Shown here: positions 2,072 to 17,006 of the stretch, piece after piece
How the letters are laid out: every line of letters begins with the position of its first letter
Position numbering within the stretch: position 1 is the first letter of the stretch
NCBI RefSeq assembly: GCF_015207265.1
Contig: NZ_JADEXE010000033.1
Span: 1-37,055 of the forward strand
Direction: 5' to 3'
Source of the DNA: Nodosilinea sp. LEGE 07298
GTDB taxonomy: Bacteria > Cyanobacteriota > Cyanobacteriia > Phormidesmidales > Phormidesmidaceae
Length of the DNA: 37,055 nt
Notes under the pieces: generated by a model
Database searches by the model: none
Seen by the model: only the letters and a program-made list of their open reading frames with translations
Told to the model about the DNA's origin: nothing
Position numbers and translations under genes: made by a program

Positions 2072-2634
2072 TGATGTATGCCTTGTGAACTGTAAAATAG
2101 CAAAGCGCCAGATTGGGAAACGGCTGTTTAGCTGCATTCCTTATTTATCAATGTTTTCAGCCTAGCGAACTTTACGAGCTGCCGATGTGAACTATTCTTT
2201 CGGCACCGGGTGTTTTGGCATCCTCGTTACATTGCAATACAGAGGCTAAAGCCATTGCAGAAGCGAGGCCCGAGGCGATCGCAGGGGGTAATCAATCCTT
2301 CTAAGCGCGAAAAAACGTAATTTCCTGTTACAGACGGTAATGCTCTGACAATCGAGCTAAGGAGTTCTCTATGAGGGCAAACAACATGAGGGCAAACAAC
2401 CGTTTGCCCCTACCGAAGAATTTCACATTAAATAAATCCACATTCCTAAACACAGGATTGAGGAAACATTAGATTGCCAGATCACCGCTTGGCCGCTCAG
2501 CGTTGATCTCCCCAAATTCAATGGGGCAGCATCGTAGTCTGTGGCACAAAGCTAACGCCAGTCCTAACCTAGGGTGAAGGCGCACCGGGAGCTAATGGTC
2601 CTAATGCAGCCGTTATGGGTGAGGATTGGGTTTG
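2072..2634. other. Intergenic region upstream of the amidase gene
   Basis: No coding frame is supported. It contains a family A palindrome with a duplicated left half (2371-2413). The promoters of the divergent membrane-protein and amidase genes must lie here; no clear -35/-10 pair stands out. Confidence 0.5.
2371..2413. repeat. Dispersed palindrome family A, copy 2, with duplicated left half
   Basis: ATGAGGGCAAACAAC occurs twice in tandem (2371-2385 and 2386-2400), followed by CGTTTGCCCCTAC. The second unit with its right half forms the usual GGGCAAAC/GTTTGCCC palindrome (2390-2409). Confidence 0.8.
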
Positions 2635-4251
2635 ATGGGAAATTTTAGAGGCGCAGCACTGCTGGCCATCATGGCAACCTTGGGCAGCGGCGTTGCTCCG
2701 GCACTGGCGGAAACGTTTCAGCTACAGGAAGCTACCATTGCTGACATTCAAGCTGCTATGGCGGCAGACGCCCTGACCTCCGTTGAGCTGGTGCAGCTTT
2801 ACCTCAACCGCATTGAGGCCTACGACGATCAAGGCCCCGCCCTCAATGCTCTAATTACGGTGAACCCTGAGGCCCTAGCGATCGCCGCCGAGATGGATGC
2901 CGATCGCCTGGCGGGGGAGATCCTCGGCCCGCTCCACGGCATTCCGATTATTCTTAAAGACAATTACAACACGGCAGATCTGCCCACTACCGCTGGTTCT
3001 GCGGTGCTGGCCGAGGCTCAACCGTCCGAAGATGCTTTTGTGGTACAGCAGCTGCGGGCCGCTGGAGCAATTATTTTGGCCAAGGCCAACATGAGCGAGT
3101 TTGCCGCCTCCTACGGACGGTTGGGCTATAGCTCTCAAGGCGGGCTAACCCTCAACCCCTACAACCTCGGTCGCAATGCCTCGGGCTCTAGCAGCGGCAC
3201 GGCAGCGGCGATTGCGGCCAACTTTGCGGTGCTGGGCACGGGCAGCGATACGGCTGGCTCCATTCGAGGGCCGTCGGCGGTGACGGGGTTGGTCGGCATT
3301 AAGCCCACCCTGGGGTTGACCAGTCGGTCGGGCATTGTGCCGCTGACGCTATCGTTTGATGTGGCTGGCCCGATGGCACGCACGGTTACCGATGCAGCGA
3401 TCGCGCTAGGGGCCATGGCTGCTCCCGACGAGGCCGACCCCGTCACCCTGGCTCCGATGGCCCCTGCCATTGACGACTACACTCAGTTTTTAGATGTAGA
3501 GGCGCTGAGCGGGGTTCGCATTGGCCTGGTGCAAAACTTTAGGGGAGGCAACGCCGAGGTCGATGCGCTGAGTGAGGCGGCGATCGCCCAGCTCGAAGCC
3601 CTAGGTGCCACCGTGGTACCAATCGATTTGCCCGAGGCCTTAGAGTCTCCCTGGAACTACATGTCTCCCGCCTGGGATAACGAATTTAAGCCCCAGATTG
3701 AGGCCTACCTGGCAACGCTGCCCGATCGCTTTCCCCAAAACCTGACGGCGCTGATTGAAGCTAGTCAGGCCCCTGCGATCGCAGAGTCGGCTACCCCGGT
3801 CAACCCCGGTCGCTTGGAAAGTCTAGAAGCTGCGATCGAAACCCCTGGCCTGGCCGACCCAGCTCTGTTGTACAACCTCTCCCATCAGCTACCCATGGTG
3901 CGGCAGGTGTTGCTAGAGACAATGGCTGCCAACAATGTAGAGGCTCTGGTCTACCCCACCATGGCCTGTCCGGCCAGCCCCATTTACACCATCGAGGACG
4001 ACTCTAGCTACGTGTGTAGTGCCGCCGACCCCTACGACGCCGGGTATCTAGCCAATCTCTCTGGCTTCCCCGATATCACCGTGCCCATGGGGTATACCGA
4101 GGCGGGGCTGCCCATTGGCCTTTCGTTTATGGCCGAGGCCTATAGCGAGCCAAAGCTGCTGGGGTTTGCCTACGCCTACGAGCAGGCCAGTACCGTGCGA
4201 TCTTCCCCCACCGCAACGCCAGCCCTGCCCGGTGAAACCATCCAATATTAG
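2635..4251 (+). CDS. Exported amidase (amidase signature family)
   Basis: A 538-residue amidase-signature enzyme that hydrolyses amide bonds, releasing ammonia or an amine. A signal peptide is seen at residues 1-25 (hydrophobic core, cleavage after APALA), so it acts in the periplasm or outside. The Ser-cisSer-Lys triad is present: Lys108 in IPIILKDN, the cis-Ser near 186 in NASGSSSGTAAA, and nucleophile Ser209 in GSDTAGSIRGPSA. Length is normal for GatA-like amidases (about 450-550), but the signal peptide and lack of gatB/gatC neighbours argue against the tRNA amidotransferase subunit. The frame allows TTG at 2626; ATG at 2635 is chosen because GAGGA lies nine bases upstream. Substrate is unknown; peptide amides or nitrogen-rich metabolites are possible. 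A monocistronic gene. Confidence 0.88.
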   Translation: MGNFRGAALLAIMATLGSGVAPALAETFQLQEATIADIQAAMAADALTSVELVQLYLNRIEAYDDQGPALNALITVNPEALAIAAEMDADRLAGEILGPLHGIPIILKDNYNTADLPTTAGSAVLAEAQPSEDAFVVQQLRAAGAIILAKANMSEFAASYGRLGYSSQGGLTLNPYNLGRNASGSSSGTAAAIAANFAVLGTGSDTAGSIRGPSAVTGLVGIKPTLGLTSRSGIVPLTLSFDVAGPMARTVTDAAIALGAMAAPDEADPVTLAPMAPAIDDYTQFLDVEALSGVRIGLVQNFRGGNAEVDALSEAAIAQLEALGATVVPIDLPEALESPWNYMSPAWDNEFKPQIEAYLATLPDRFPQNLTALIEASQAPAIAESATPVNPGRLESLEAAIETPGLADPALLYNLSHQLPMVRQVLLETMAANNVEALVYPTMACPASPIYTIEDDSSYVCSAADPYDAGYLANLSGFPDITVPMGYTEAGLPIGLSFMAEAYSEPKLLGFAYAYEQASTVRSSPTATPALPGETIQY

Positions 4252-4456: not shown

Positions 4457-5509
4457 CTAAATTCCAAGCTGACCGAGGCCAATCATCAATAGGCTAGCGA
4501 TCGCTAGAAATAGCCAAGATAACCCAGCCAGATAAATTGGCTTAATGCCCAGCTGGGTTAGGTTCGATACATTTGTTTCCAGCCCCATGGCCACCAGAGA
4601 CATGCAGAGCAACCACTGATTACCGCTCAGGACCATCGCCTTCAGCGGCTCCGCGACCAGGTTAAAGCTGTTGACAATGACCAAAAGGCCAAAAAAGATC
4701 ACAAACCAGGGCATGGGAATCGTCGTCTGGTTTTGACGATTTGCGCGACTGGTTTGCCAGCCCAGGCTAACCATGATCGGTACCACCAGCAGCACCCGCG
4801 AGAGTTTGGTCACCGTGGCCAATTCACCGCTAATGTCTCCTTTTTGAAAAGCGGTGGCCAGCACCTGGGCCACCTCGTGTACCGAGGCCCCGCACCACAG
4901 GCCAAAGGCCTGGGGGCTGAGCTGTAGCAGGCTGCCCAACAGTGGATAAGTCAGCATAGCCAGGGTGCCAAAGCCGGTGATAGTGGCGATCGCATAGGTC
5001 ATGTCTTCCTCAGAGCCTTCCACAACGGTGTTGGTCGCCACCACCGCCGAAGCCCCGCAGATCGATGTACCCGCCGCAATCAGCTGAGTCAGGCGGGGGT
5101 TAACGCCCAGCCGCTGCCCCAGCCAGCAGGTCAGGTAAAAGGTGCTGAGGGTACCGATGGTCACCATCCCCAGCCCCCAGGGGCCTACGGCCATGACTCC
5201 TGCCCAGCTCAGCCGCAGCCCCAGCAAAATCACCGCCAGCCGCAGCACTCGCTTCATGGCAAATTTGATGCCGGGGCGATAGGTGACAGGCACTGTGCCC
5301 CACTGCCGCCAACCAATCCCGAGGAGCACAGCGATCAGCAGTGGGTTGAGGGTTTCTAAGCCAATTATCCGACCCAAACCAATGGCGATTCCAGCCATCA
5401 GGATCGTGAGCAGCAGCCCTGGCAAAATTGATAGGCTCTGAGTCTTCCAGTCACTCGAAGCCAGACCAAGGGTAGACGCCCCTTGATCAGATTTAGTTGA
5501 TAGTTTCAT
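4457..5509 (-). CDS. YeiH-like putative sulfate/sulfite exporter (UPF0324)
   Basis: A 350-residue polytopic membrane protein of the YeiH/UPF0324 family (often annotated putative sulfate exporter). The family core is seen: AAGTSICGASAVVATNTVV, followed by EEDMTYAIATITGFGTLAM and LWCGASVHEVAQVLATAF. About ten hydrophobic segments span residues 28-345. The start at 5509 has AAGG nine bases upstream. The gene lies 28 bases after a TauE/SafE-type exporter gene on the same strand, so the two are probably one transcript. Known members have been linked to sulfonate or sulfur-compound metabolism; the transported ion is an inference from family and neighbours. Confidence 0.85.
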   Translation of the reverse strand: MKLSTKSDQGASTLGLASSDWKTQSLSILPGLLLTILMAGIAIGLGRIIGLETLNPLLIAVLLGIGWRQWGTVPVTYRPGIKFAMKRVLRLAVILLGLRLSWAGVMAVGPWGLGMVTIGTLSTFYLTCWLGQRLGVNPRLTQLIAAGTSICGASAVVATNTVVEGSEEDMTYAIATITGFGTLAMLTYPLLGSLLQLSPQAFGLWCGASVHEVAQVLATAFQKGDISGELATVTKLSRVLLVVPIMVSLGWQTSRANRQNQTTIPMPWFVIFFGLLVIVNSFNLVAEPLKAMVLSGNQWLLCMSLVAMGLETNVSNLTQLGIKPIYLAGLSWLFLAIASLLMIGLGQLGI

Positions 5510-5537: not shown

Positions 5538-6260
5538 TCAGGCCACCAGCGCCAGCAGGGCCACCGTCAACAACAGACCAATCACAAAGCGGCGAAAGAG
5601 AACTTCATCCACCCGCTTAAAGCACAGCTGCCCCAGCAGCTGCCCCAGTAAAAAAGCTGGCAACAAGCGGATGAATAGGCCTCCCACCGCTACCGATATC
5701 AAGCCGCTAGCCCAGTAAGAACCTAGGGCAATGACCTGGATGAGCGCAAAAAATACGATAAAGTTGGCCCGGTTGGCGGCTGCCAAGTTGCGGCTAGACA
5801 TTTGGTAGAGCACGATGGGAGGCCCACCAATGCCTGCCAGGCCGGTCAAAAAACCACTCAGGGCACCAACCCCCGAGGTCAAGACCAGGGGGGGATGGGT
5901 GTAGCGGCCTTTGCCGCTCAACAGCAGCAGCACGAACCCTAAAATTAGCCCGCCGATGATGCGCCGCAGCAGGGTTGGATCGAGCAGCGCCAGAAAGTGT
6001 GCTCCCACCGGCACCATCACCACGGCGCTGACCACCAAAGGCAACACCTGCTGCCACTTGGTCTTTTGCACAGCTCCGGGTACTATCCCAGCCCCAGCCG
6101 TCATATCGATCAGGAGAATGGTCGCTACCGCCAGCTGCGGATTGAACAGCAGACTCAGCGCAGGAGCAAGAATCAACCCTGAGCCAAAGCCAGAGAAACC
6201 TCGGGTAAAGCCTGCGATCGCCACTACCCCCAGGCTGATAAGCCACATGCTGATGTCCAT
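5538..6260 (-). CDS. TauE/SafE-family sulfite/anion exporter
   Basis: A 240-residue inner-membrane protein with two homologous halves and about eight helices. The TauE/SafE signature is seen near the N-terminus (GFTRGFSGFGSGLILAPALS) and again in the second half (LSGFLTGLAGIGGPPIVLY). Family members export sulfite, sulfoacetate or related anions, for example after sulfonate breakdown. The frame starts at 6287, but a strong GGAGG lies seven bases before the ATG at 6260, so translation most likely begins there. It is the upstream gene of a pair with the YeiH-like gene. The 317-base gap to the Mrp gene above holds repeats, so transcription may or may not continue from the AprA-like operon. Confidence 0.85.
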   Translation of the reverse strand: MDISMWLISLGVVAIAGFTRGFSGFGSGLILAPALSLLFNPQLAVATILLIDMTAGAGIVPGAVQKTKWQQVLPLVVSAVVMVPVGAHFLALLDPTLLRRIIGGLILGFVLLLLSGKGRYTHPPLVLTSGVGALSGFLTGLAGIGGPPIVLYQMSSRNLAAANRANFIVFFALIQVIALGSYWASGLISVAVGGLFIRLLPAFLLGQLLGQLCFKRVDEVLFRRFVIGLLLTVALLALVA

Positions 6261-6447
6261 AGGGGTGCCTCCTGCCAGTGCAAACATTAGAAAAGGATCC
6301 CCTGATTGACCGGGTTAAGTCAGGAGTGAGGTATCGGCGGGGATCCGGAAGAGTGGATGGGTGGGCGGGTGGATAGGTGGGCGAGTGGATGTGTGGATGT
6401 GTGGACCAAATTCATTCGGCTAACCTAATTCACAAAGAGATCGTTTT

Positions 6448-6577: not shown

Positions 6578-7672
6578 TCAACAAACGGCTGTCAACTCCA
6601 CCGTTGCCACGCCAAAGGTCGCATTCAGGCCCGAGGCAATTTGCCCAAAGATCTGACTCAGGGGGGCATCGGGCAGCTTCATGGGCAGGGGCACGCCCAC
6701 ATCCCCCTGTTCACAAATGCGGGGGTCGATGGGCACCTGACCCCACAGCGGCACCGAGAGTTCGGTGGCGATCTGGGCACCGCCGCCGCTGCCGAAGATC
6801 GGTGTGGGTTCGCCGCAGTGGCCGCAGAGCAGGTAGCTCATATTTTCCACTAGACCCAGCACCGGCACTCCCACCTGGCGGAACATGTACACGCTGCGGC
6901 GCACGTCGGAGACGGCCACCTGCTGCGGTGTGGTCACCATCACCACGCCGCAAATGGGGCTTTCTTGCACGATGGTGATCTGGGCATCGCCAGTGCCGGG
7001 GGGCAGGTCGATCAGCAGGTAGTCCAATTCGCCCCAGTCCACCTCGTGGAGAAACTGGGTGAGAATCTTGTGCATCACCGGGCCGCGCCAGGCCAGGGGG
7101 TGATCGCCTTTGGCCAGTAGACCGACCGACATCAGCTTGATGCCGTGGGCCTCTAGGGGCACAAACCGCTGGCCCTCGGGGGTGTCGATGATGCGCACAT
7201 CGCACTGGCCCAAACCCAGCATTTGGGGCACGTTGGGGCCGTAGATGTCGGCATCGAGCAGACCCACCTTGGCTCCGGTTTTGGCCAGGGCCGCCGCCAG
7301 ATTGACGGCGGTGGTCGATTTACCAACGCCACCCTTGCCGCTCGATACCGCCAGGGTGGTGCGCACCCCAGGAATGGTGCAGAGCTGGGCGTAGGCTTTT
7401 TTGCACCAGGGCAGCTGGCTTAGGGTTTCTTGCACCTGATCTTGCAGGGCGAGCTGATGGCGGCCCACGTAGAGCCGCAGATAGATGTGGTCGCCCACCA
7501 CTTGCAGGTTGCGCACCATGCCCAGGCTGACTAGATCATTGCCCAGGGTTGGCTCGCGCAGGGTTTTGAGCTGAGCGATAACTTCGGCTTTGCGGGCGAT
7601 CGCCTCAGCACTGGGAGCCACTTCAGGGGGGGCCTCAGCAGCGCGATGAAACGGGGAAGTATGGCTAGACAT
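6578..7672 (-). CDS. Mrp/NBP35-family Fe-S carrier ATPase
   Basis: A 364-residue P-loop ATPase of the Mrp/ApbC/NBP35 family, which binds and transfers [4Fe-4S] clusters to apoproteins in the cytoplasm. An N-terminal MIP18/DUF59-like domain (about 25-105, DLVSLGMVRNLQV) is followed by the deviant Walker A GKGGVGKST (112-120), LLDADIYGPNVPQMLG, IDLPPGTGD (221-229) and the dimer-bridging CGHC (Cys283, Cys286). The frame extends to 7828, but that part overlaps the HEAT gene; the ATG at 7672 overlaps the HEAT stop by eight bases, which implies translational coupling. Its place in an operon with an AprB-like ferredoxin suggests a dedicated cluster-loading role, an inference. It may also be the cell's general Mrp. 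Confidence 0.88.
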   Translation of the reverse strand: MSSHTSPFHRAAEAPPEVAPSAEAIARKAEVIAQLKTLREPTLGNDLVSLGMVRNLQVVGDHIYLRLYVGRHQLALQDQVQETLSQLPWCKKAYAQLCTIPGVRTTLAVSSGKGGVGKSTTAVNLAAALAKTGAKVGLLDADIYGPNVPQMLGLGQCDVRIIDTPEGQRFVPLEAHGIKLMSVGLLAKGDHPLAWRGPVMHKILTQFLHEVDWGELDYLLIDLPPGTGDAQITIVQESPICGVVMVTTPQQVAVSDVRRSVYMFRQVGVPVLGLVENMSYLLCGHCGEPTPIFGSGGGAQIATELSVPLWGQVPIDPRICEQGDVGVPLPMKLPDAPLSQIFGQIASGLNATFGVATVELTAVC

Positions 7673-8642
7673 TGGAGGTTTCTGGCTGAGACTTCTGGAT
7701 CGCGTCAATGGCCCGCTGGGAGAAAATCCGCACGTCCATATCGGGATCGTTGAGGGTTTGTTGCAGGGCGGGCAGGGCGTTGGTGTCGGCCAGTTTGCCC
7801 AGGGCGGTAGCCGCATCGCGCCGCACATCGGAGTATTCGTCGGCCAGGGACTTGATTAGCACTGGCAGAGCCTGCACGTCTGGGGTTTTCTGCAGGGCTC
7901 GGGCAGTGAACTTGCGCACCTGCCATTCGGGGTCATCCATCGCCTTGACCAGAGCTTCAACGGCAGCCGGATCCGCCAAAATATCCAGCGACTGCGCCGC
8001 ATTGCGCCGCACCTGCCAGTCAGGGTCACTCGTCAGTAGTTCACACAGCAGCGGCACTACCTCAGCATCGCTCAAATGGCCCAGGGTCAAGGTTGTCGCT
8101 CGCCGCACCGACTCGTCAGGGTCTTTCGCTAAGGCCAAAGCCGGTTCGCAGCGCACCACCTGATTCAGGTAGCGCAAGGTAATCACCGCCGCCTCCCGCA
8201 GCTCAGGGTTCTCCGACTCAAAGAACGGCATGATATACGGCAGCGCCTGGGCGTCGTGGATTTTGCGCAGCAGCACCAGCACGTTGAGCTGGGCATGAAC
8301 ATTGCCCACCTGCAACACATCCAGCAGCTTCATCAAGTCGTTGGTCGAAACCAATTCCTTGAGGGCCGACAGCGCTTCGCTGCGCACATTTTCATGGGGC
8401 GAACTGAGGCACTCGATCAACGGGTTAATGGCGACCGGGTTGGCAAATTCCCACAGGGTGGTGATGGCGATTTCTTGCACCGTGGGGTTTTCGTCGTAGA
8501 GCGCCCCGATCAAGGGCTCGATCGCATCTTCATCGCCCAGGTGTTGCAGGGTTTTGACCGCGACCAGGCGGTTGTCGAGGTCGGGCGATCGCAGCAGCTC
8601 AACCCACTGAGCAACTTCAGGGTCCATATCGGTGGTGTACAT
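7665..8642 (-). CDS. HEAT-repeat protein in the AprA-like operon
   Basis: A 325-residue soluble protein made almost wholly of HEAT/PBS-lyase-like repeats of about 31 residues, roughly nine copies, with recurring patterns such as VRRDAATALGKLAD, VRRNAAQSLDILAD, VRSEALSALKELV and VRKFTARALQKTPD. Such solenoids bind other proteins; in cyanobacteria related proteins include CpcE/NblB chromophore-lyase types. Here the position between a ferredoxin and an Mrp ATPase suggests a scaffold or assembly factor for the flavoprotein-ferredoxin pair (inference). No signal peptide is present. ATG at 8642 has AGGA about ten bases upstream. The stop overlaps the start of the Mrp gene. Confidence 0.85.
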   Translation of the reverse strand: MYTTDMDPEVAQWVELLRSPDLDNRLVAVKTLQHLGDEDAIEPLIGALYDENPTVQEIAITTLWEFANPVAINPLIECLSSPHENVRSEALSALKELVSTNDLMKLLDVLQVGNVHAQLNVLVLLRKIHDAQALPYIMPFFESENPELREAAVITLRYLNQVVRCEPALALAKDPDESVRRATTLTLGHLSDAEVVPLLCELLTSDPDWQVRRNAAQSLDILADPAAVEALVKAMDDPEWQVRKFTARALQKTPDVQALPVLIKSLADEYSDVRRDAATALGKLADTNALPALQQTLNDPDMDVRIFSQRAIDAIQKSQPETSNV

Positions 8643-8758: not shown

Positions 8759-8986
8759 TTATCTGAGCAAGAACGGAATCTGCACCGTAATCGCCCCAGT
8801 CGGGCACTCCTTCTCGCAAGGTAGGCAGAACCAGCACTCGTCGTACTTCATGTAGGCTTTGCCGGTCTCGGGGTTTTTCACCAGCACATCTAGAGGGCAG
8901 ACCTCAATGCAGGCGTTACATTTTTCGAGGCATTTCGATTCATCGACGATTACAGGTACGTCAACACGTTGGGTAGTTAAGGCCAT
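8759..8986 (-). CDS. AprB-like ferredoxin with two [4Fe-4S] motifs
   Basis: A 75-residue iron-sulfur protein. The first motif is Cys19-x3-Cys23-x2-Cys26-x3-Cys30-Pro and the second Cys51-x2-Cys54-x2-Cys57-x3-Cys61-Pro, enough for two [4Fe-4S] clusters. The second motif region (ECWFCLPCEKECPTGAI) resembles the AprB subunit of adenylylsulfate reductase, including Trp52, at the place of the AprB Trp that I recall contacting the flavin of AprA. It lacks the longer C-terminal tail of true AprB (about 150 residues). AAAGGA lies five bases before the ATG. It is the second gene of the operon, after the AprA-like flavoprotein, and is its likely electron partner. Confidence 0.88.
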   Translation of the reverse strand: MALTTQRVDVPVIVDESKCLEKCNACIEVCPLDVLVKNPETGKAYMKYDECWFCLPCEKECPTGAITVQIPFLLR

Positions 8987-9014
8987 GGTTTTCCTTTAGG
9001 TCAAGGGTCACGAT

Positions 9015-9091
9015 GTAGGTTGGGTGCAGCGCTAGCGGAACCCAACAGCGGCAGGTTTGCGTTGGGTTACACTTCGTTTCACCCAACCTAC
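9015..9091. repeat. Long inverted repeat between flavoprotein and ferredoxin genes
   Basis: GTAGGTTGGGTG (9015-9026) pairs with CACCCAACCTAC (9080-9091), with further partial pairing inside (AACCCAAC/GTTGGGTT). This type of GTAGGTTGGGT element is common in cyanobacteria, from memory. It lies within an operon and could form a stable intercistronic hairpin. Confidence 0.75.
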
Positions 9092-9120
9092 GGGGTTTGC
9101 TGGGTGCAGCTCAGGGAGAT

Positions 9121-9141
9121 GGTGGGCAGTGCCCACCCTAC
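9121..9141. repeat. Dispersed palindrome family B, copy 2
   Basis: GGTGGGCAGTGCCCACCCTAC, 13 bases after the stop of the flavoprotein gene on the minus strand, inside the operon. Confidence 0.8.
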
Positions 9142-9153
9142 AGGGGGCGGGAG

Positions 9154-10857
9154 CTACCGGACGGCGACGTCGTAGACTTCTTCGACCAGATCGACATCGA
9201 CGATGTAGGGCTCGACGGCGCGCTTAAACAGCCCCATGTGGCCGGTTTCGCCCTTCTTCAAGTTGACGTGGCAGAACCATTCCTCGTTGTTCTTTTCGGG
9301 ATAGTCGAGACGGTAGTGGTAGAGGCCCCAGCGGGTCTCTTTGCGGAACAGGGAGGCGCGGGCAGCCATCTCGGCGCAGTCGCGGATGAAGTGCACCTCC
9401 ATGCAGCGCATCAGCTCGTGGGGGTCTCGGGCACCCATGAGGTCGAGTGTGTCTTCGTAGGCAACAAACTTTTGCAGGCCAATGTCCATGTTGTTGGGTG
9501 ACTTGGGCGGCTGCAGGTAGTCGTTGACTAGGCGGCGCAGCTTGTATTCGATCTGGGTGTGGGGTACGCCGTCGGGCTGTTGGAGCGGGGCGTAAATGCG
9601 GGCCTGTTCGGCGGCGAGGAATTCGGCGTCGGGTTCGACATGCTCCAGGTCGCGCACGTAGTCCATCGCGTTTTCGCCCGCAATCCGGCCATAGACGAAG
9701 GCACCAATCATGTAGTTGTGGGGCACGCTGGCCATGTCGCCCGCTGCGTAGAGGCCGGGGACTGTGGTTTCGGCCCGCTCGTTTACCCAGACGCCCGAGG
9801 CGCTGTGGCCGCTGCACAGGCCAATTTCGGAGATATTCATCTCGACGCCGTGGGTGCGGTAGCTTTCGCCCCGGCCCTCGTGGAAGCGGCCTCGGCTGGG
9901 CCGCTCGTTATCCCACAGAATGGTTTCAATTTCGTTGATGGTGTCGTCGTCGAGGTGGTACATCTTCAGGTGTACTGGGCCTTTGCCCGAGTGCAGCTCT
10001 TTGTAGACCTCCAGCATCATCTGGCCGCTCCAGTAGTCGCAGTTGATGAAGCGGTGGCCCTCGGCGTTGGCGGTATAGGCTCCAAAGGGGCTGGCCACGT
10101 AGGCGCAGGCGGGGCCGTTGTAGTCTTTGATCAGCGGGTTGATCTGGAAGCACTCGATGTTGGTCAGCTCGGCCCCGGCGTGGTAGGCCATGGAGTAGCC
10201 GTCGCCCGCGTTGGTGGGGTTTTCGTAGGTGCCGTAGAGGTAGCCGGAGGCGGGCAGACCCAGGCGACCGCAGGCCCCGGTGCAAAGCACGACAGCCTTG
10301 GCCTGAATCACCACCATGTTGCCGTTGCGCACGTCGAGGCCCACGGCCCCGGTGACGCGGCCGTTCTGCACCATGACGCGGGTAGCCATCACCCGGTTGG
10401 TGACGTTGACCTTGTGGCGCTTGACCTGGCGGGCGAGAATTTTCTTCAGGTCTTTGCCTTCGGGCATGGGCAGCACGTACTTGCCCACCCGGTGCACCTG
10501 CTTGAGATCGTAGTTGCCCTCGTGGTCTTTTTGAAACTTGACGCCCCAGCTCTCCAGTTCTTGGATCACCTCAAAGCCCAGTCGCCCAGTTTCGTAGACA
10601 GCCTTTTGGTTGACGATGCCGTCGTTGGCGATGGTGATTTCGCGCACGTACTGCTCGGGGGTGGAGTTGCCGGGGATGACGGCGGTGTTGACCCCGTCCA
10701 TGCCCATAGCGATCGCGCCACTGCGGCGAATATTGGCTTTCTCCAAAATCAGCACGTCGCTCTCGGGGCTGGCCTGCTTCGCCTTAATGCCTGCCATCGT
10801 GCCAGCGGTGCCACCGCCGACGACTAGAAAATCAGTTTTAAGATACTGAATGTTCAC
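9154..10857 (-). CDS. AprA-like flavoprotein (adenylylsulfate reductase / fumarate reductase superfamily)
   Basis: A 567-residue FAD protein. The dinucleotide motif GGGTAGTMAG is at 14-23, and the C-terminal FAD motifs are GLYAAGD (368-374) and GRIAGENA (390-397). Several stretches resemble AprA more than SdhA/FrdA: a KDYNGPACAY region (244-253), and SGHSASGVWV (349-358), where His351 sits at the place of the AprA active-site histidine in its GSHSG motif (alignment by eye). AprA reduces APS to sulfite and AMP or runs in reverse. This protein is shorter than typical AprA (about 610-660). GTG at 10857 is forced as start, since an in-frame TGA precedes it and the FAD motif begins ten residues later. 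It leads an operon with the AprB-like ferredoxin. The real substrate is unknown. Confidence 0.85.
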   Translation of the reverse strand: MNIQYLKTDFLVVGGGTAGTMAGIKAKQASPESDVLILEKANIRRSGAIAMGMDGVNTAVIPGNSTPEQYVREITIANDGIVNQKAVYETGRLGFEVIQELESWGVKFQKDHEGNYDLKQVHRVGKYVLPMPEGKDLKKILARQVKRHKVNVTNRVMATRVMVQNGRVTGAVGLDVRNGNMVVIQAKAVVLCTGACGRLGLPASGYLYGTYENPTNAGDGYSMAYHAGAELTNIECFQINPLIKDYNGPACAYVASPFGAYTANAEGHRFINCDYWSGQMMLEVYKELHSGKGPVHLKMYHLDDDTINEIETILWDNERPSRGRFHEGRGESYRTHGVEMNISEIGLCSGHSASGVWVNERAETTVPGLYAAGDMASVPHNYMIGAFVYGRIAGENAMDYVRDLEHVEPDAEFLAAEQARIYAPLQQPDGVPHTQIEYKLRRLVNDYLQPPKSPNNMDIGLQKFVAYEDTLDLMGARDPHELMRCMEVHFIRDCAEMAARASLFRKETRWGLYHYRLDYPEKNNEEWFCHVNLKKGETGHMGLFKRAVEPYIVDVDLVEEVYDVAVR

Positions 10858-11278: not shown

Positions 11279-13333
11279 ATGGAAATCTACCAGCTCAAAG
11301 TATTTTTAGAGGTAGCTCGCTGCCTCAGCTTTACCGAGGCAGCCGATGCCCTCAATTTGACTCAGCCAGCCGTCAGCGCCAAAATCAAATGTTTGGAGTG
11401 TGAGCTGGAAACGCCACTCTTCAGACGATTAGGTCGCCGCATAGAACTTACCCAGGCAGGAGAATACCTGCTCGAAGAAGGCCCCAGCCTGGTCGACTTA
11501 GAAACTCGTTTGGTAGCTGAGATTGAAGAAATTAAACAGGGAAAATTTAGCACTCTAAAGATTGGCTGTATGCCCGATGTGCTGAGTAACTGGCTACCGT
11601 CGGTACTGTACGAGTACCGACGGGTCTATCCCGATGTGCAAACTAAATGCATTCAGTTTGATGCGATCGAGCCGCTGTACCGCGCGATCAAGACGGGCGA
11701 GGTAGATTTGGGTGTTTCCGATCTTAGTTTTTCGGCTTTTGATGAAATTTCAGAACTCGCTATTGGGTCGGTTCACTATTCTTTAGTGGTGTCTAGCAGT
11801 CACCAGCTCGCTCAACGGCCCTGGCTGAGCCTAAAAGAACTTACCGATCAATCTTGGGTGCTGCCGCCCGAGGGCGTGCCGGGCCGCATTATGCTGCAAA
11901 AGCGCATGCAAGAGCTGGGGCTCAACTTAACCGATTTTGCCCATGCTGAAATCGTCGATGCCGCCAGTTTAATGCGTACCTATTTGCTCCAGGGGCACTA
12001 CCTGGGGTTTGTCTCTGACTTTGAATTTCAAATGGAGTGTGAGGCCGGGCTGCTGCGTCGCATTCCCCTAGAAGAATTTGCCCTGGGCACGCCGCTGTTT
12101 TTGCTGATGGCTAAGCGCTTGGGGCGAGCCTTGGGTTTAACTGGCCAATCCGCCAGTCGCAGCAGTCTGGGGTTAGAACCCATCCGTCAATTTGTGGCGA
12201 TGGTGCAAGGCCAACCTGGCCTTACCCAAGGTCTATTGCCCAAAGCCTCCCCCGGAGCATTAACACCCGCGACCACACCGACAGATTCCGCCCATCCCAA
12301 TCCCAAGGTGGCCCGGTTCCAAGCGCCTAACTTTTTGGTGCGCTCTGGTTCTGCCAGCGGTACCGAGACGATCGATCTCACCATCGGCACCCAAAACCGC
12401 ACTATTCAAACCGTAACCGCCGGGTTGATCATTCAGCGGCTGGGGCTGCTAGAGCATTTTTTGCCGCGCGAGGGCCGCTACAGTGGCGTTCAGTACCGCA
12501 TTCACTGGGCTGACTACAGCTCTGGGGCACCCATCGTCGCCGGGCTAGAGGCGCAGCAGATCGATATTGGCGTGCTGGGTGACTACCCGCTGCTGCTGAG
12601 TGCGGTACCCGGTGACAGTACGGCCCCGGCGGCGGGCACGCGGCTGATCAGCTTTGTCGCCAGCAACTTAGACGGCACCGGCAACGACATCATTGTGCCG
12701 CAGCACTCGACCCTCGACTGCATTGATGATTTGGCGGGGCGGGTGATTGCGGTACCCTTTGGCTCGGCGGCCCACGGTATGGTAATGCGATCGCTCCACC
12801 ACCGCCAGATTCTCAACGCCGTCACCCTCACCTCTATCGACAGCGCCAGTTCGCAGCGCTCTAGCCGCCAGACCGCCCCTGTCGATGGCTACGCCTACTT
12901 CGCCCCGTTTCACGAAATTGCCAAGCACAAGGGCCAGTTTCGCCGCCTGCTGCACGAAAACCTAGACGGTCTGCCCACCTTCCACGGCGTGGTGATTCGC
13001 GACGTGCTGGCCGAGCAGTATCCCGAGATTGCTGTAGCTTATCTGCGATCGCTGCTAGCGGCTCAATACTGGTATGCTACTCAGCCGATGGCTACCACCC
13101 TGGTCAGTCGCTGGGTGAATATGGATGCCGCCATTGTGACAAAAACCCTGCGCTCTAGCGCCAGCGACCAGGCCAATGTGGTCTACCTGCCCGAAACCCA
13201 GCTGCGTACTGACTGGCTCCAGGCCCACATCCAGCAGATCGGCCAGATTGCCGGGCAGGAGCACCTGGGCCAGATTAACCTCGATCGCTGGATGCAGCCG
13301 GAGTTTTTGGAGCGGGCGATCGCAGCGCTTTGA
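11279..13333 (+). CDS. LysR-type regulator fused to a substrate-binding-protein domain
   Basis: A 684-residue fusion. Residues 1-60 are a LysR winged helix-turn-helix (LSFTEAADALNLTQPAVSAK), and about 90-312 the usual LysR effector domain. A Pro/Ala/Thr-rich linker (313-364) leads to a full NMT1/SsuA-type binding-protein domain (365-684). That domain aligns along its length with the transporter binding protein encoded at 15489-17006: IGTQ start, QIDIG, PFGSAAHGMV (493-502), and the PTFHG/PEIAVAYLRSLL region. There is no signal peptide, so this copy stays in the cytoplasm. It probably senses the transported ligand or a product (inference). It is divergent from the AprA-like operon and convergent with the ABC genes, its likely targets. 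An NtcA-type promoter precedes it. Confidence 0.9.
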   Translation: MEIYQLKVFLEVARCLSFTEAADALNLTQPAVSAKIKCLECELETPLFRRLGRRIELTQAGEYLLEEGPSLVDLETRLVAEIEEIKQGKFSTLKIGCMPDVLSNWLPSVLYEYRRVYPDVQTKCIQFDAIEPLYRAIKTGEVDLGVSDLSFSAFDEISELAIGSVHYSLVVSSSHQLAQRPWLSLKELTDQSWVLPPEGVPGRIMLQKRMQELGLNLTDFAHAEIVDAASLMRTYLLQGHYLGFVSDFEFQMECEAGLLRRIPLEEFALGTPLFLLMAKRLGRALGLTGQSASRSSLGLEPIRQFVAMVQGQPGLTQGLLPKASPGALTPATTPTDSAHPNPKVARFQAPNFLVRSGSASGTETIDLTIGTQNRTIQTVTAGLIIQRLGLLEHFLPREGRYSGVQYRIHWADYSSGAPIVAGLEAQQIDIGVLGDYPLLLSAVPGDSTAPAAGTRLISFVASNLDGTGNDIIVPQHSTLDCIDDLAGRVIAVPFGSAAHGMVMRSLHHRQILNAVTLTSIDSASSQRSSRQTAPVDGYAYFAPFHEIAKHKGQFRRLLHENLDGLPTFHGVVIRDVLAEQYPEIAVAYLRSLLAAQYWYATQPMATTLVSRWVNMDAAIVTKTLRSSASDQANVVYLPETQLRTDWLQAHIQQIGQIAGQEHLGQINLDRWMQPEFLERAIAAL

Positions 13334-13356: not shown

Positions 13357-13379
13357 GGGCAAACGCCGTTTGCCCCTAC
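13357..13379. repeat. Dispersed palindrome family A, copy 5
   Basis: GGGCAAACG/CGTTTGCCC arms around one C, followed by CTAC, in the 42-base gap between the convergent LysR-fusion and ABC ATPase genes. It may serve as their shared terminator. Confidence 0.75.
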
Positions 13380-14191
13380 AGGCACCCCTCCATGCTTTTC
13401 ATGGTCTCTTCGCGGATGCACTCAAATACCTGCCGGTGCAGATTGACAAACTCCGCCGAGAGCGTATCGTCAAAGTGGCGGGGGCGGCGCAGCCCGACCG
13501 GCAACTCGGCCTTGATGTGCCCTGGCTGCACCCCCATAATGCAGATGCGATCGCCTAAAAAGATCGCCTCCTCAATGTCGTGGGTGACAAAAATCACCGT
13601 AGTTTTCAGGTCATCCCAAATATTCAGCAGCAGCTCCTGCATCATGTGGCGAGTTTGGGCGTCGAGGGCCGCAAAGGGTTCATCCATCAGCAGCACCGAG
13701 GGAGAATTGACCAGCGCCCGCACAATGCTAGCCCGCTGCTGCATACCCCCCGACATCTGGTGGGGGTAGCTGTTGCGGTGCTTGTACAGCCCTACCCGAT
13801 TGAGGTAGTCATGGACGAGTTCAGTGCGATCGCCCTTCGCCATACCGCGAATTTTGAGCCCCAGCTCAATGTTTTGAAAGGCCGTTTTCCAGGGCAGCAG
13901 CGAATATTGCTGAAACACAAAACCGCGATCGGCCCCAGGGCGCATAATCGGTGCCTGGTCGACCATCACATAGCCCGCCGTAGGCTTAATAAACCCGGCC
14001 ACTACGTTCAGCAACGTTGATTTACCACATCCAGAAGGGCCTAACAAACACACAAATTCACCGGGTCTAATTCCTAGCTGAATCGAATCCAACACGTGGG
14101 TTTCGTGCCCCCGATTGCGAAAGGTGACCGATAGCCCCTCTACCTGAACAGCCCCTTTGGTGGTCTGTAGTTGCTCTAACTGCGTCATCAT
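13376..14191 (-). CDS. SsuB/TauB-type ABC transporter ATP-binding protein
   Basis: A 271-residue ABC ATPase of the nitrate/sulfonate/taurine group. Walker A GPSGCGKST (51-59), Q-loop FVFQQYSLLPW, signature MSGGMQQR, Walker B VLLMDEPF and H-loop FVTHDIEEA are all intact. GADRGFVFQQYSLLPW is typical of SsuB/TauB. It powers uptake with the permease and binding protein encoded upstream on the same strand. Three starts are close together (GTG 14194, ATG 14191, ATG 14188); 14191 is a choice, not proven. The last gene of the transport operon. Confidence 0.9.
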   Translation of the reverse strand: MMTQLEQLQTTKGAVQVEGLSVTFRNRGHETHVLDSIQLGIRPGEFVCLLGPSGCGKSTLLNVVAGFIKPTAGYVMVDQAPIMRPGADRGFVFQQYSLLPWKTAFQNIELGLKIRGMAKGDRTELVHDYLNRVGLYKHRNSYPHQMSGGMQQRASIVRALVNSPSVLLMDEPFAALDAQTRHMMQELLLNIWDDLKTTVIFVTHDIEEAIFLGDRICIMGVQPGHIKAELPVGLRRPRHFDDTLSAEFVNLHRQVFECIREETMKSMEGCL

Positions 14192-14285
14192 CACGTCTTC
14201 GTCGTCCTCTTGAGTAGCACAAACTTGAGTAGCATCAAAAAAGTCTTTGTTGATTGCGATTTAAAAGTTATGGCGGAGTAACGGT

Positions 14286-14350: not shown

Positions 14351-15205
14351 TTAAACACTGCCCTGCTTCTTAATCACTCGCCAAGGCATTAGCGCTTCCA
14401 TAGCTCGGCTCACAGCCCAGGAGCTAAACGCTCCCATTAATCCAATCAAAAGCATGCCCATTACAATGGGAGGATAGTTAGAAACAACGTAGGATTCCCA
14501 GGTTATATAGCCAATTCCGTAGCGCCCTGCCAAAATTTCGGCTGTCACCAGGCAAAACCAGGCATTGCCCATGCCAATTACCAGCCCACTGGCGATGCTA
14601 GGCAGCGACCCCGGCACTACAATGTCTTTGAAAATGTGCCAGGGTTTAGCCCCCAAACACTGCCCTACCCGAATCAGTACGGTATCACTTAGAGTGCTCT
14701 CTACCCCGTTAATCGTGCTAATTAATACCGGAAAAAAGGCTCCTACAAAGGTAATAAAAATCATCCCGCTTTCGGCATTGGGAAACATTAGAATGGCCAG
14801 GGGAATCCAGGCCACGGCTGGAATTGGGCGCAGCAGTTCTAGGGGGGGCATCAGTAAGTCTTCTGCTACGACAAACCAGCCAATCATGATGCCCAGCAGC
14901 ACTCCTAACCCAGAGGCTGCGGCATAGCCCCACAGCACCCGGCTAATGCTAGAGCGAAAATGTACCCAGGGGCTTTCGGTAAAAAAAGTTAGTGTGGCCT
15001 TAAACACCTCTACGGGAGAAGGCACAAACTGAAAATTAATAAAAAAGTCGAAGTCAATTACGCACAGTATCTGCCAAATGCCAAAAAACAGTACCAGCGC
15101 TAGCAGTCGCCGCGCCGAGCGACTAGATAAAAGTAGGCTGTTTAAAGCATGGCTAACCTGGGCTAGCCAGTGCGGGTACCCTACCCGTGGAACCGAAACC
15201 GCCAT
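14351..15205 (-). CDS. SsuC/TauC-type ABC transporter permease
   Basis: A 284-residue inner-membrane permease of the BPD_transp_1 family. A first helix (LLALVLFFGIWQILCVI) is followed by about five more; the EAA-type cytoplasmic loop is seen around LGAKPWHIFKDIVVPGSLPSIASG. AWIPLAILMF and GFGN-like GIGYITWE segments match SsuC/TauC/NrtB. The frame runs to 15238, but GAGAGG lies six bases before the ATG at 15205, which is preferred. A gap of 283 bases separates it from the upstream binding-protein gene, long for a single operon. Confidence 0.9.
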   Translation of the reverse strand: MAVSVPRVGYPHWLAQVSHALNSLLLSSRSARRLLALVLFFGIWQILCVIDFDFFINFQFVPSPVEVFKATLTFFTESPWVHFRSSISRVLWGYAAASGLGVLLGIMIGWFVVAEDLLMPPLELLRPIPAVAWIPLAILMFPNAESGMIFITFVGAFFPVLISTINGVESTLSDTVLIRVGQCLGAKPWHIFKDIVVPGSLPSIASGLVIGMGNAWFCLVTAEILAGRYGIGYITWESYVVSNYPPIVMGMLLIGLMGAFSSWAVSRAMEALMPWRVIKKQGSV

Positions 15206-15488
15206 ATTGCGCCTCTCAATCACATCAATACATGTCAACTAAAAGCCACAGTAGGGCAAGCAGATCTCACCATTCTGTTCTCTATGACCCCCATAAAGAG
15301 CCTCAAAGTGCAGCGAGAAGCGCCGCAATAGGAAGCCTTGATTGGAGATAAGAGCATTCCACTTGAAAAATATCTTTTCCATGGCTGCGAACTCGGCCAG
15401 TTGGGTCGGTCGCCCTGCAATGCCGGATAGGTATTTAGCAGGAACACTCTAACGCTGCTTGCCCGTGGCTATCTTGAACCTAAAGCGG
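15206..15488. other. Long gap inside the ABC transporter operon
   Basis: The 283 bases between binding-protein stop and permease start contain a 70-codon minus-strand frame (15235-15447), but its composition and sequence do not look like a protein. No clear terminator or promoter is seen. It could hold an intercistronic control element, or the permease may have its own promoter. Confidence 0.4.
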
Positions 15489-17006
15489 CTAGCGCTGTGC
15501 ACCTACCAGTACAGGTTTGCGATCGGCGTAGAGATCTTGTAACCCCCTAAAGGCCGTCATTTGGCCGCCTGTAGACGAGGCGTAGGTCTGGGCGTCAGAT
15601 TCGACTAAGAAAGCTGCTACCTCATCTCCATTGCTGACAAAGTAGGCGTTTTCTGCAAACAGTTTCCAACCATTGTTGTAGTCGTGGACAAACATGACAT
15701 CTGCTGCCTGCCCTTCAGCCTGAAGCGCCGAAAGGGCTTTTATCATGTTTGCGATTGAAGCATAATTGGCTACTTTTTCTTCTCCCTGTACCCAAAGCTG
15801 AGCCGCCAGTTTAGGATTTTCAATGGCTTCTCTGGTCAGGGCGTCTTCACCAGTAATTTGATAGGCTTCTGCAGTGGCAATGACCTCGTCATAGTCTAGC
15901 CCTAGCTCTTCCATGGCGGTGAGCAAATAGCTTTCATCAATCCAGTTGACCACTTCTTCTGGATTCACCGGCTTTTCAATTTTACCCAGGCTGGTTAGGG
16001 TGGCAATACTGTTTTTTAGAGCGCTAATCTGTACCTCGCGAATGGTTGGATCGAGGGGCTGTAAGCCAGAAGGGCCTAAGAACATATAGACCACTTCTTT
16101 TTCAATGCCTGACCACTCTTCAATTTGGGCAGAAATTCCTTCAGGATCAGCCTGGAACATCTGATTAGCTTCAAGTACCGCCTTCAAGTAGGCCACCACA
16201 ATTTCGGGATGTTCTTCAGCAAAATCAGAACGCACCGTGATGCCGTGGAGGGTAGGAACTCCGGTTTGGGCACCGTCAAAGATTTTTTTGGCAAACCCTC
16301 GGAAGGGAAATAATTCGCCAAAGGGTACAAAATCAGCGTGGGCGTCGATCTGTCCGGTACGCAGGCTAGAACCACCTACTTCTGGGGCCTGACTGATTAA
16401 CTCGACATCGGTTTCTGGGTCTAACCCAGCATCGGTTAGCGCCTTGAGTACCATGCCGTGCGCCGCTGAGCCAAAGGGGACTGAAACAGTTCCGCCCTTT
16501 AAATCAGCTAGAGAGGTGGCATCGCTGTCTTTGGGCACTACCACGGCGTTCCCAGCTCCGTTAGGACTGTAGGCTAGGGTGCCAATAAAAATTGAGTCGG
16601 CATCTGCGGCTTCTTGCTGAAACTTAATTAAGTTAATTACAGCCGGAAAGTCACCCATCAAGCCAATGTCAATTTGATTGGCCAACATTTTATTGGTAAT
16701 AGGGGGGCCAGAGGTATAGCTAGACCATTGAATATCGTAGTCGACTCCCTCATATTTACCATCGGTTGGCAAATGCTTTTCTAGAAGCTCTAGCTCGCGT
16801 ACTGTGGCTCCACCAACGGCAGTGTTAATGACCTGATCTTGAGTGCCGATCGCAATGCGAATGACCTTACCAGAATTGCTGCCTGAGTCAGTAGATTCGC
16901 CGCTGGAGTTAACTTCACCTGTCGAGCAGGCTCCCATCAAAACAACCGAGGTTACTAATAGACTTGACGTAATTTTTTTCCGAGACCAACCTAGTAAGTA
17001 GCGCAT
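15489..17006 (-). CDS. ABC transporter substrate-binding lipoprotein (SsuA/NMT1 type) with NosL-like C-terminus
   Basis: A 505-residue exported binding protein. A signal sequence with a lipobox-like LMGAC places Cys27 as the lipidated residue, followed by a Ser/Gly-rich tether. Residues about 47-400 form an NMT1/SsuA-type binding domain (IGTQDQVINT, QIDIGLMGDFP, VPFGSAAHGMV at 176-186, VPTLHGITVR). Typical SsuA proteins end at about 320-350 residues. Here an extra C-terminal part (about 437-500) reads VMFVHDYNNGWKLFAENAYFV, then DAQTYASSTGGQMTAF. This resembles the NosL pattern (tDYntg...A.Y.V and DA..fa..hGG.v..F) but lacks cysteines. Paralogue of the binding domain in the LysR fusion. First gene of its operon, with an NtcA-type box upstream. 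Confidence 0.88.
   Translation of the reverse strand: MRYLLGWSRKKITSSLLVTSVVLMGACSTGEVNSSGESTDSGSNSGKVIRIAIGTQDQVINTAVGGATVRELELLEKHLPTDGKYEGVDYDIQWSSYTSGPPITNKMLANQIDIGLMGDFPAVINLIKFQQEAADADSIFIGTLAYSPNGAGNAVVVPKDSDATSLADLKGGTVSVPFGSAAHGMVLKALTDAGLDPETDVELISQAPEVGGSSLRTGQIDAHADFVPFGELFPFRGFAKKIFDGAQTGVPTLHGITVRSDFAEEHPEIVVAYLKAVLEANQMFQADPEGISAQIEEWSGIEKEVVYMFLGPSGLQPLDPTIREVQISALKNSIATLTSLGKIEKPVNPEEVVNWIDESYLLTAMEELGLDYDEVIATAEAYQITGEDALTREAIENPKLAAQLWVQGEEKVANYASIANMIKALSALQAEGQAADVMFVHDYNNGWKLFAENAYFVSNGDEVAAFLVESDAQTYASSTGGQMTAFRGLQDLYADRKPVLVGAQR

Follow-up and report, generated by a model that had tools for sequence, protein, structure and literature searches.

The window analysed here, a 37,055-nucleotide stretch of contig NZ_JADEXE010000033.1 from Nodosilinea sp. 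LEGE 07298, carries on its reverse strand a pair of genes for a flavoprotein and a ferredoxin. The flavoprotein, an alpha-like flavin adenine dinucleotide (FAD) subunit of 567 residues, is encoded at 9154..10857 (-) from a GTG start. The beta-like dicluster [4Fe-4S] ferredoxin at 8759..8986 (-) has 75 residues, a Fer4_7 domain, eight cysteines and a tryptophan, Trp52. Genes for a HEAT-repeat protein, an Mrp-type carrier and TauE and YeiH family proteins lie downstream of the pair, while a divergent LysR gene lies upstream, followed by SsuB-, SsuC- and SsuA-like genes. A preliminary description had placed both genes of the pair correctly and read them as a relative of AprAB, the adenosine 5'-phosphosulfate (APS) reductase, with a changed interface or substrate. 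The analysis below supports this.

Over its whole length the flavoprotein scored 1004.8 bits against the NCBIfam model NF006131 (PRK08275), whose curated cut-off is 587, and it is the only protein of its genome above that cut-off. It stayed under the cut-off of the longer fusion model NF010374/PRK13800 (896.4 bits against 1196) and failed the AprA model TIGR02061 (195.9 against 641.75) and the sdhA_frdA model TIGR01812 (153.5 against 567.3). Sequence comparison places it in NF006131 and outside AprAB, the 3'-phosphoadenosine 5'-phosphosulfate (PAPS) reductases (PAPSR) and the succinate dehydrogenases and fumarate reductases (SDH and FRD), and probably outside AsfA. The pair belongs to a large family that is already modelled but misnamed: NF006131/PRK08275 and NF010374/PRK13800 fit by score, but both carry the name fumarate reductase/succinate dehydrogenase and neither is assigned a fitting function. 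At least 546 relatives were found at E 1e-3, part of which were checked against the NF006131 cut-off, and records of Phormidium, Leptolyngbya and Nodosilinea with 97-99% identity were among the matches listed; no relative was found in the viral contigs scanned. The open PMC literature, with subscription papers (including Vermeij 1999) outside the scope of the search, yielded no paper on the function of the NF006131-type family and no phenotype data for it. Among the open papers listed PRK08275 was absent and PRK13800 occurred once, in a paper on an arbuscular fungus, and the main text of papers on sulfur in Gordonia and Rhodococcus contains neither the word fumarate nor succinate dehydrogenase.

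The database name can hardly be right. A succinate dehydrogenase or fumarate reductase flavoprotein would share the fold superfamily and the NCBIfam product name, and in the low-confidence structural model described below fumarate reductases nearly match the best hit in score. Besides the shortfall against TIGR01812, however, the positions of E. coli SdhA His242 and Arg286, which we take to be catalytic residues, are occupied by N240 and Q279 in an alignment with 1nek, and the cassette holds no SdhB-type partner.

Among solved structures the best relative of the flavoprotein was a PAPS reductase (8a8o_A, E 5.5e-70 over residues 1-550), followed by AprA (1jnr, E 7.6e-46; 3gyx, E 2.4e-32) and then by SDH and FRD. 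The E values of the 8a8o and 1jnr matches indicate that the likeness to AprA exceeds chance, and by this measure the flavoprotein is homologous to the alpha subunits of APS and PAPS reductases. The 8a8o protein (MtPAPSR) is an assimilatory PAPS reductase of Methanothermococcus thermolithotrophicus and resembles the window pair in having an FAD alpha subunit, a short two-cluster beta subunit, a tryptophan between them (Trp42) and an active-site histidine and asparagine (PMC10322725). In a FastTree tree AprA and PAPSR-like proteins were grouped together (support 1.0), apart from the NF006131-type family; the window flavoprotein belongs to a lineage separate from that of MtPAPSR. AlphaFold2 gave the flavoprotein a mean pLDDT (a per-residue confidence score) of 47.9 with 20 sequences and 56.7 with 76, residues 234-353 of the better model being below 50. 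Foldseek ranked 8a8o first, then 1jnr, then fumarate reductases; VIA-align gave Z 29.4 for 8a8o (root-mean-square deviation, rmsd, 5.4 over 366), Z 25.5 for 2fja (rmsd 5.6 over 375) and up to Z 28.4 for fumarate reductases (5vpn, rmsd 6.2 over 433). The predicted model supports the superfamily, not a choice within it, and is unable to place residues.

Residues were compared by HMMER alignments and a MAFFT alignment, with AprA numbered by count along 2fja. Of the 105 family rows (102 distinct sequences), 95 were cyanobacterial and 10 came from plasmids of other phyla; some rows stem from one contig taken twice. According to a study of AprAB, the AprA sulfonyl group is surrounded by Asn74, Trp234, Arg265 and His398, adenine is clamped by Arg317 and Leu278, Tyr95 and His446 lie near the ribose and phosphate, FAD is bent by Leu70, Asn74 and Trp234, and electrons are carried by Trp-B48 (PMC2211403). 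The GHS motif of the flavoprotein (G350-H351-S352), which the preliminary description had put at the place of the AprA active-site histidine, does lie there: H351 aligns with the GGH of 8a8o and in turn with A. fulgidus AprA His398 (MAFFT). Asn74 and His446 are likewise kept, as N57 and H380, while Trp234 is replaced by Y211, Arg265 by L242, Leu278 by A255, Tyr95 by E73 and Leu70 by M53. N57, Y211, L242, H351 and H380 are identical in all 105 rows: one half of the AprA sulfonyl site (Asn74 and His398) is retained in every row and the other half (Arg265 and Trp234) is replaced in every row.

The adenine clamp is lost. MAFFT leaves a gap at Arg317, residues 270-292 of that region contain no arginine, and Leu278 corresponds to A255. 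The partners of AprA Glu141 and Gln145 are V124 and V128 in HMMER and K119 and R123 in MAFFT, so that the exact partners are uncertain and the residues are kept in neither alignment. In the former AMP (adenosine monophosphate) region the alignment shows a loop that is extended by about five residues and contains the basic residues K119, H122 and R123; HMMER and MAFFT align it differently with the MtPAPSR 3'-phosphate loop (Lys120, Arg121, Ser122), basic residues being present. Alignment thus indicates that the AMP clamp is gone and half of the AprA sulfonyl site remains, rather than the loss of both the AMP pocket and the sulfite site that the preliminary description had named as incompatible with its reading.

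The closest solved relatives being PAPS and APS reductases, it is conceivable that the pair truly reduces APS or PAPS, or that it oxidises sulfite to form APS, but this is highly improbable. Arg265 is an invariant leucine (L242), the Arg317 region lacks arginine, Leu278, Tyr95, Glu141 and Gln145 are not retained, and the scores are far under the AprA and AprB cut-offs. The arginine is present in 8a8o, and all four PAPSR-like proteins encoded within the phylum retain the AprA-type Arg, Trp and His; MtPAPSR (PMC10322725) keeps the Arg265 equivalent together with a PAPS-binding loop, unlike the window flavoprotein with its L242 and longer loop. Four small genomes (L015-L018; 1.8-2.5 Mb) of the same phylum and another class encode an MtPAPSR-like alpha subunit and a beta subunit of 140-151 residues. 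The alpha subunit of L015 scores 701 bits to 8a8o and reads RGS at the Lys120-Arg121-Ser122 stretch, and its substrate specificity may differ from that of MtPAPSR.

The ferredoxin was matched best by polyferredoxins and then, among others, by AprB (3gyx_B, 1.1e-10; 1jnr_B, 3.2e-7) and 8a8o_C (1.1e-6); it failed the AprB model TIGR02060 (36.4 bits against a cut-off of 135.65). As the preliminary description had noted, Trp52 comes after the first cysteine of the second cluster motif: W52 comes immediately after C51, and in AprB Trp-B48 stands in the same way next to Cys-B47 (numbering of PMC2211403), an equivalence of sequence position. The eight cysteines and W52 are present in every one of the 97 ferredoxin rows (59 distinct), as well as in all four PAPSR-like rows; the two Asf-like ferredoxins compared have CQTC and no tryptophan. 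The shortness of both subunits was also borne out. The ferredoxin ends after the two-cluster core, without the AprB tail (75 residues against 150-166 in AprB and 104 in the 8a8o beta chain), and the flavoprotein is 76-95 residues shorter than AprA (567 against 643-662). One qualification is that, among solved structures, the nearest is that of a PAPS reductase, whose beta subunit is likewise short. The pair is like AprAB (1jnr, 2fja, 3gyx) in fold, in the Asn74, His398, His446 and Trp-B48 positions and in the two-cluster ferredoxin, and unlike it in the lost AMP clamp and Arg265, the missing tail and the shorter alpha subunit.

Directly downstream of the pair are genes for a HEAT-repeat protein of 325 residues (7665..8642, -; HEAT_2) and an Mrp/ApbC-type [4Fe-4S] carrier ATPase (6578..7672, -; NUBPL/ParA, FeS_assembly_P). 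The likely Mrp start is at 7672, where its ATG overlaps the HEAT stop (ATGTCTAG); the mechanical open reading frame extends to 7828. The HEAT protein corresponds to the C-terminal part (positions 611-896) of the 898-position flavoprotein model NF010374, and on a Tsukamurella plasmid the flavoprotein has 893 residues and the stretch around it lacks a HEAT gene of its own, which is consistent with a natural fusion of flavoprotein and HEAT protein. Further on are a TauE/SafE-family candidate sulfite exporter (5538..6287, -; PF01925, 105 bits) and a YeiH-family putative sulfate exporter (4457..5509, -; PF03601; TIGR00698 190 bits, under the cut-off of 232.6). Near the cassette, the gene at 2626-4251(+) encodes an amidase-like protein that, judged by eye, probably carries a signal peptide, and amidases recur by related cassettes.

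On the other side, 421 bp from the flavoprotein gene and divergent from it, a gene at 11279..13333 (+) encodes a LysR regulator (HTH_1, LysR_substrate) with a second SsuA-like binding-protein half, residues 356-620 of which share 36% identity (E 1.3e-55) with the substrate-binding protein (SBP) at 15489..17006 (-). The regulator seems to hold a cytoplasmic copy of the transporter's sensor. The remaining importer genes are those of an SsuB/SaoA-like ABC ATPase (13376..14194, -; best NCBIfam match NF040729, 257 bits, under the cut-off of 360) and an SsuC/TauC/SaoP-like ABC permease (14351..15238, -; PF00528; NF040733, 116 bits, under 295). The SBP, of 505 residues with NMT1 and an extra C-terminal NosL-like domain, scores 128 bits against SsuA_fam TIGR01728 (cut-off 163.5). 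NosL, which we take to be a copper-chaperone family, is over the Pfam cut-off here and in 4 of 10 other SBPs of related cassettes. The cassette SBP is similar over its full length across phyla, with 60-74% identity to those of three other cyanobacterial cassettes, 44-48% to six proteobacterial ones and 32% to that of Tsukamurella, against 24% to the ordinary SBP of a Nostoc cassette.

The flavoprotein, ferredoxin, cassette Mrp and cassette SBP were searched for in 292 genomes of the same phylum. The flavoprotein was above the NF006131 cut-off in 12 genomes, all of which were among the 13 with the ferredoxin (E 1e-22); the cassette Mrp (E 1e-100) was also found in 12, 11 of them shared, and the cassette SBP (E 1e-110) in five, all with the flavoprotein. 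The Fisher p values for co-occurrence with the flavoprotein, which ignore shared ancestry, were 2e-20, 5e-18 and 5e-8 for ferredoxin, Mrp and SBP. A housekeeping Mrp with 44-49% identity to the cassette Mrp was present in all 16 genomes examined, so that the latter is a second copy, present in 11 of 12 genomes with the flavoprotein and in none of four without it. One genome (G125) has the ferredoxin, HEAT and part of Mrp, with no flavoprotein in the 16 kb examined (L123, G125:C1:1220000-1236000), a decaying or rearranged cassette; in another (G159), the 14 kb examined contain no more of the cassette than parts of HEAT and Mrp.

Among 80 named cyanobacterial loci the ferredoxin and HEAT genes each occur in 73 and Mrp in 68. 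The seven loci without ferredoxin and HEAT have 43 to 5,291 bases remaining downstream, the largest ferredoxin spacing seen being 5,374; of the 12 without Mrp, six have at least 8.7 kb remaining and are therefore real absences nearby. Close relatives of the LysR fusion occur in 27 of the 80 loci. In the plasmid sample 51 records matched, 13 were examined and 12 were annotated, a Variovorax record being without annotation. All 12 have the ferredoxin and HEAT (one read as fused, from the length of its coding sequence), nine a long-SBP ABC importer, three, the cyanobacterial ones, Mrp, and four (L113, L117, L119, L121) a DUF971 or butyrobetaine-hydroxylase-like gene. The cassette is thus found in cyanobacteria including Prochlorococcus and on plasmids of proteobacteria and actinobacteria, conjugative rhizobial plasmids among them; part of the flavoprotein-ferredoxin-HEAT sets have a dedicated SsuABC-like importer, and the second Mrp is added in cyanobacteria.

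On the usual view, oxygenases cleave the C-S bonds of sulfonates when sulfur is limiting, and glycyl-radical or thiamine enzymes do so in dissimilation. We tentatively favour, at a little short of an even chance, the reading that the pair is a ferredoxin-driven flavoenzyme of AprAB type which probably releases sulfite from an imported sulfonate-type compound. In its favour are the family and structure matches, the retention of Asn57, His351 and Trp52 beside the loss of Arg265 and the Arg317 clamp, the gene linkage and co-occurrence, the similarity of the SBP across phyla, and the flavoprotein genomes in which SsuD falls short of its cut-off, G121 among them. As such it would be a two-subunit enzyme of APS/PAPS-reductase fold with an organosulfur substrate instead of APS. 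The SsuABC-like importer would take the compound in and the LysR-SBP protein would sense it in the cytoplasm. Cellular ferredoxin may donate electrons to the 75-residue subunit, from which they would pass from cluster to cluster and through Trp52 to FAD. Asn57 and His351 may hold the sulfonyl oxygens while the reduced flavin attacks or reduces the sulfonyl sulfur, and the sulfite released would be assimilated or exported via TauE or YeiH. The HEAT protein could act as a scaffold or help in assembly, and [4Fe-4S] clusters could come from the second Mrp.

Several observations weigh against this proposal. The sulfonate label comes from family resemblance and neighbouring genes, as no sulfonate or taurine transporter model is above cut-off for the window importer and NMT1-type binding proteins carry nitrate, thiamine precursors and other ligands too. 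The proposal is further weakened because the importer accompanies the pair in part of the cyanobacterial loci only: close SsuB and SsuC relatives were found together in 18 of 80, and the cassette SBP was missing from 7 of 12 flavoprotein genomes. With Arg265 lost, one of the two positively charged residues of the AprA sulfonyl site is missing, which weakens the case for a straight copy of the AprA mechanism. Moreover, AprAB has AMP as its leaving group, and in chemical terms carbon would be a far worse one.

The loss of half the sulfonyl site and the longer basic loop (K119, H122, R123) in the former AMP region would also suit an enzyme acting on another sulfur bond or a modified intermediate (S-sulfonate, sulfamate, sulfinate or thiosulfonate), or one reducing C=C or C=O, with sulfur released elsewhere. 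Amidases and M20 peptidase-family proteins recur nearby, so that the import may be processed first. No direct evidence for such a reaction was seen, and the presence of TauE and YeiH in the window and its relatives suggests that the product is sulfite or sulfate; we regard this alternative as distinctly unlikely.

Flavoprotein-ferredoxin pairs beside sulfonate importers have a precedent in the Asf system. According to PMC4267179, asfA mutants of Pseudomonas putida S-313 lose the use of aromatic sulfonates, and the reductase/ferredoxin serves oxygenation; by analogy, such a pair can be needed for desulfonation. AsfA and AsfB resemble the window pair in that a flavoprotein of the same superfamily stands beside a ferredoxin and a sulfonate-type ABC importer, with a role in sulfur scavenging (PMC4267179, PMC2864759). 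AsfAB was first taken as the identity of the pair, from gene layout, and dropped after a search of Cupriavidus metallidurans, where AsfA/B are Rmet_4334/5 and asfRAB is placed on CHR2 (PMC2864759). No protein of NC_007974.2 (taken as CHR2; unannotated, with tags unmapped) was above the NF006131 cut-off, the best scoring 83.8 and 51.1 bits, which speaks against AsfA orthology. One of these weak relatives adjoins a 111-residue ferredoxin with CQTC and the other a 212-residue FrdB-like protein (by eye), and by an estimate from tag order Rmet_4334 could be either. The candidate AsfA scores 51-56 bits against NF006131, far under 587, with 26% identity over 245 residues, and its candidate ferredoxin lacks the tryptophan. 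The C. metallidurans megaplasmid, which is in the plasmid collection, is outside the 51 records matched. The candidate Asf-type pair is a parallel system distinct from the window pair. It occurs again in Azospirillum beside SsuABC genes and an amidohydrolase, with no HEAT or Mrp gene in two annotated regions. Overall (L127, L130, L131) a similar gene set surrounds it in Azospirillum and similar genes lie nearby in C. metallidurans, and an Asf-type flavoprotein was found in 59 plasmid records, two of Nostoc among them.

On the Asf precedent, the window pair could be an electron-transfer module only, a reductase and ferredoxin serving an oxygenase whose gene lies elsewhere. This is the role proposed for AsfAB with SsuD in the use of aromatic sulfonates and stated for asfAB in PMC4267179. 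Oxygenase-type genes do lie near some cassettes, namely NtaA/DmoA in Cupriavidus, LLM proteins in S. fredii, a Rieske protein in Paraburkholderia and a sterol-desaturase-family gene in Methylocystis, but no type occurs in more than two of the 12 annotated regions. SsuD (TIGR03565) is above cut-off in 9 of the 12 flavoprotein genomes, with no match at 1e-3 in G000 and G121 and only 30.8 bits in G197. TauD (PF02668) is in 11 of the 12, at 82.8 bits in G000 and with no match in G121 at E 1e-3, and a candidate Asf-type flavoprotein at E 1e-60 in six, with none in G000 and G121. The cassette of G121, a genome 99% complete, can therefore stand without SsuD, TauD or an Asf-type flavoprotein, other oxygenase families being unsearched, and this weakens the case for an electron relay, for which an invariant AprA-type histidine and asparagine would also be unexpected. 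In some genomes taken as Nostocales, on the other hand, the flavoprotein shares a contig with SsuD, TauD and an Asf-type flavoprotein. An oxygenase partner is possible there, and an unlinked oxygenase of a kind not yet known is possible despite the absence of SsuD and TauD; both count against a self-sufficient desulfonating enzyme. On balance we consider a pure relay unlikely. SsuD, TauD and an Asf-type flavoprotein lie together on G149:C8 and on G153:C56 as an organosulfur island.

The proposal of a ferredoxin-fed flavoenzyme releasing sulfite has a bolder form, in which the family would be a class of desulfonase that is new and needs no oxygen. A flavoprotein of APS-reductase fold, powered by ferredoxin, would take sulfur from organosulfonates through a flavin-N5 sulfonyl (sulfite) adduct, with a HEAT protein and an iron-sulfur carrier of its own as partners. 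The class would range from Prochlorococcus to Proteobacteria and Actinobacteria, concealed by the name succinate dehydrogenase. As a whole this is rather unlikely. If such an enzyme does exist, a reductive route would be added to sulfonate desulfonation. The occurrence of the flavoprotein gene in 12 of 292 genomes, in Prochlorococcus and on conjugative plasmids of rhizobia suggests a possible importance for the supply of sulfur in the sea and in soils. The name of this widespread family is misleading, and genomes such as G121 make the sulfonate question directly testable.

The cassette is present in four Prochlorococcus records (L103, L104, L105, L108; guanine-cytosine content 31-33%), whose AG names suggest single-cell genomes. 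In L104 it is accompanied by TauA/TauC-like genes, an amidase resembling allophanate hydrolase and a B12-dependent ribonucleotide reductase; L103 has a YeiH-like gene. In a Nostoc record (L112), the flavoprotein and ferredoxin genes are separated by those of two HAD hydrolases, a methyltransferase, a GNAT and a glyoxalase-family protein.

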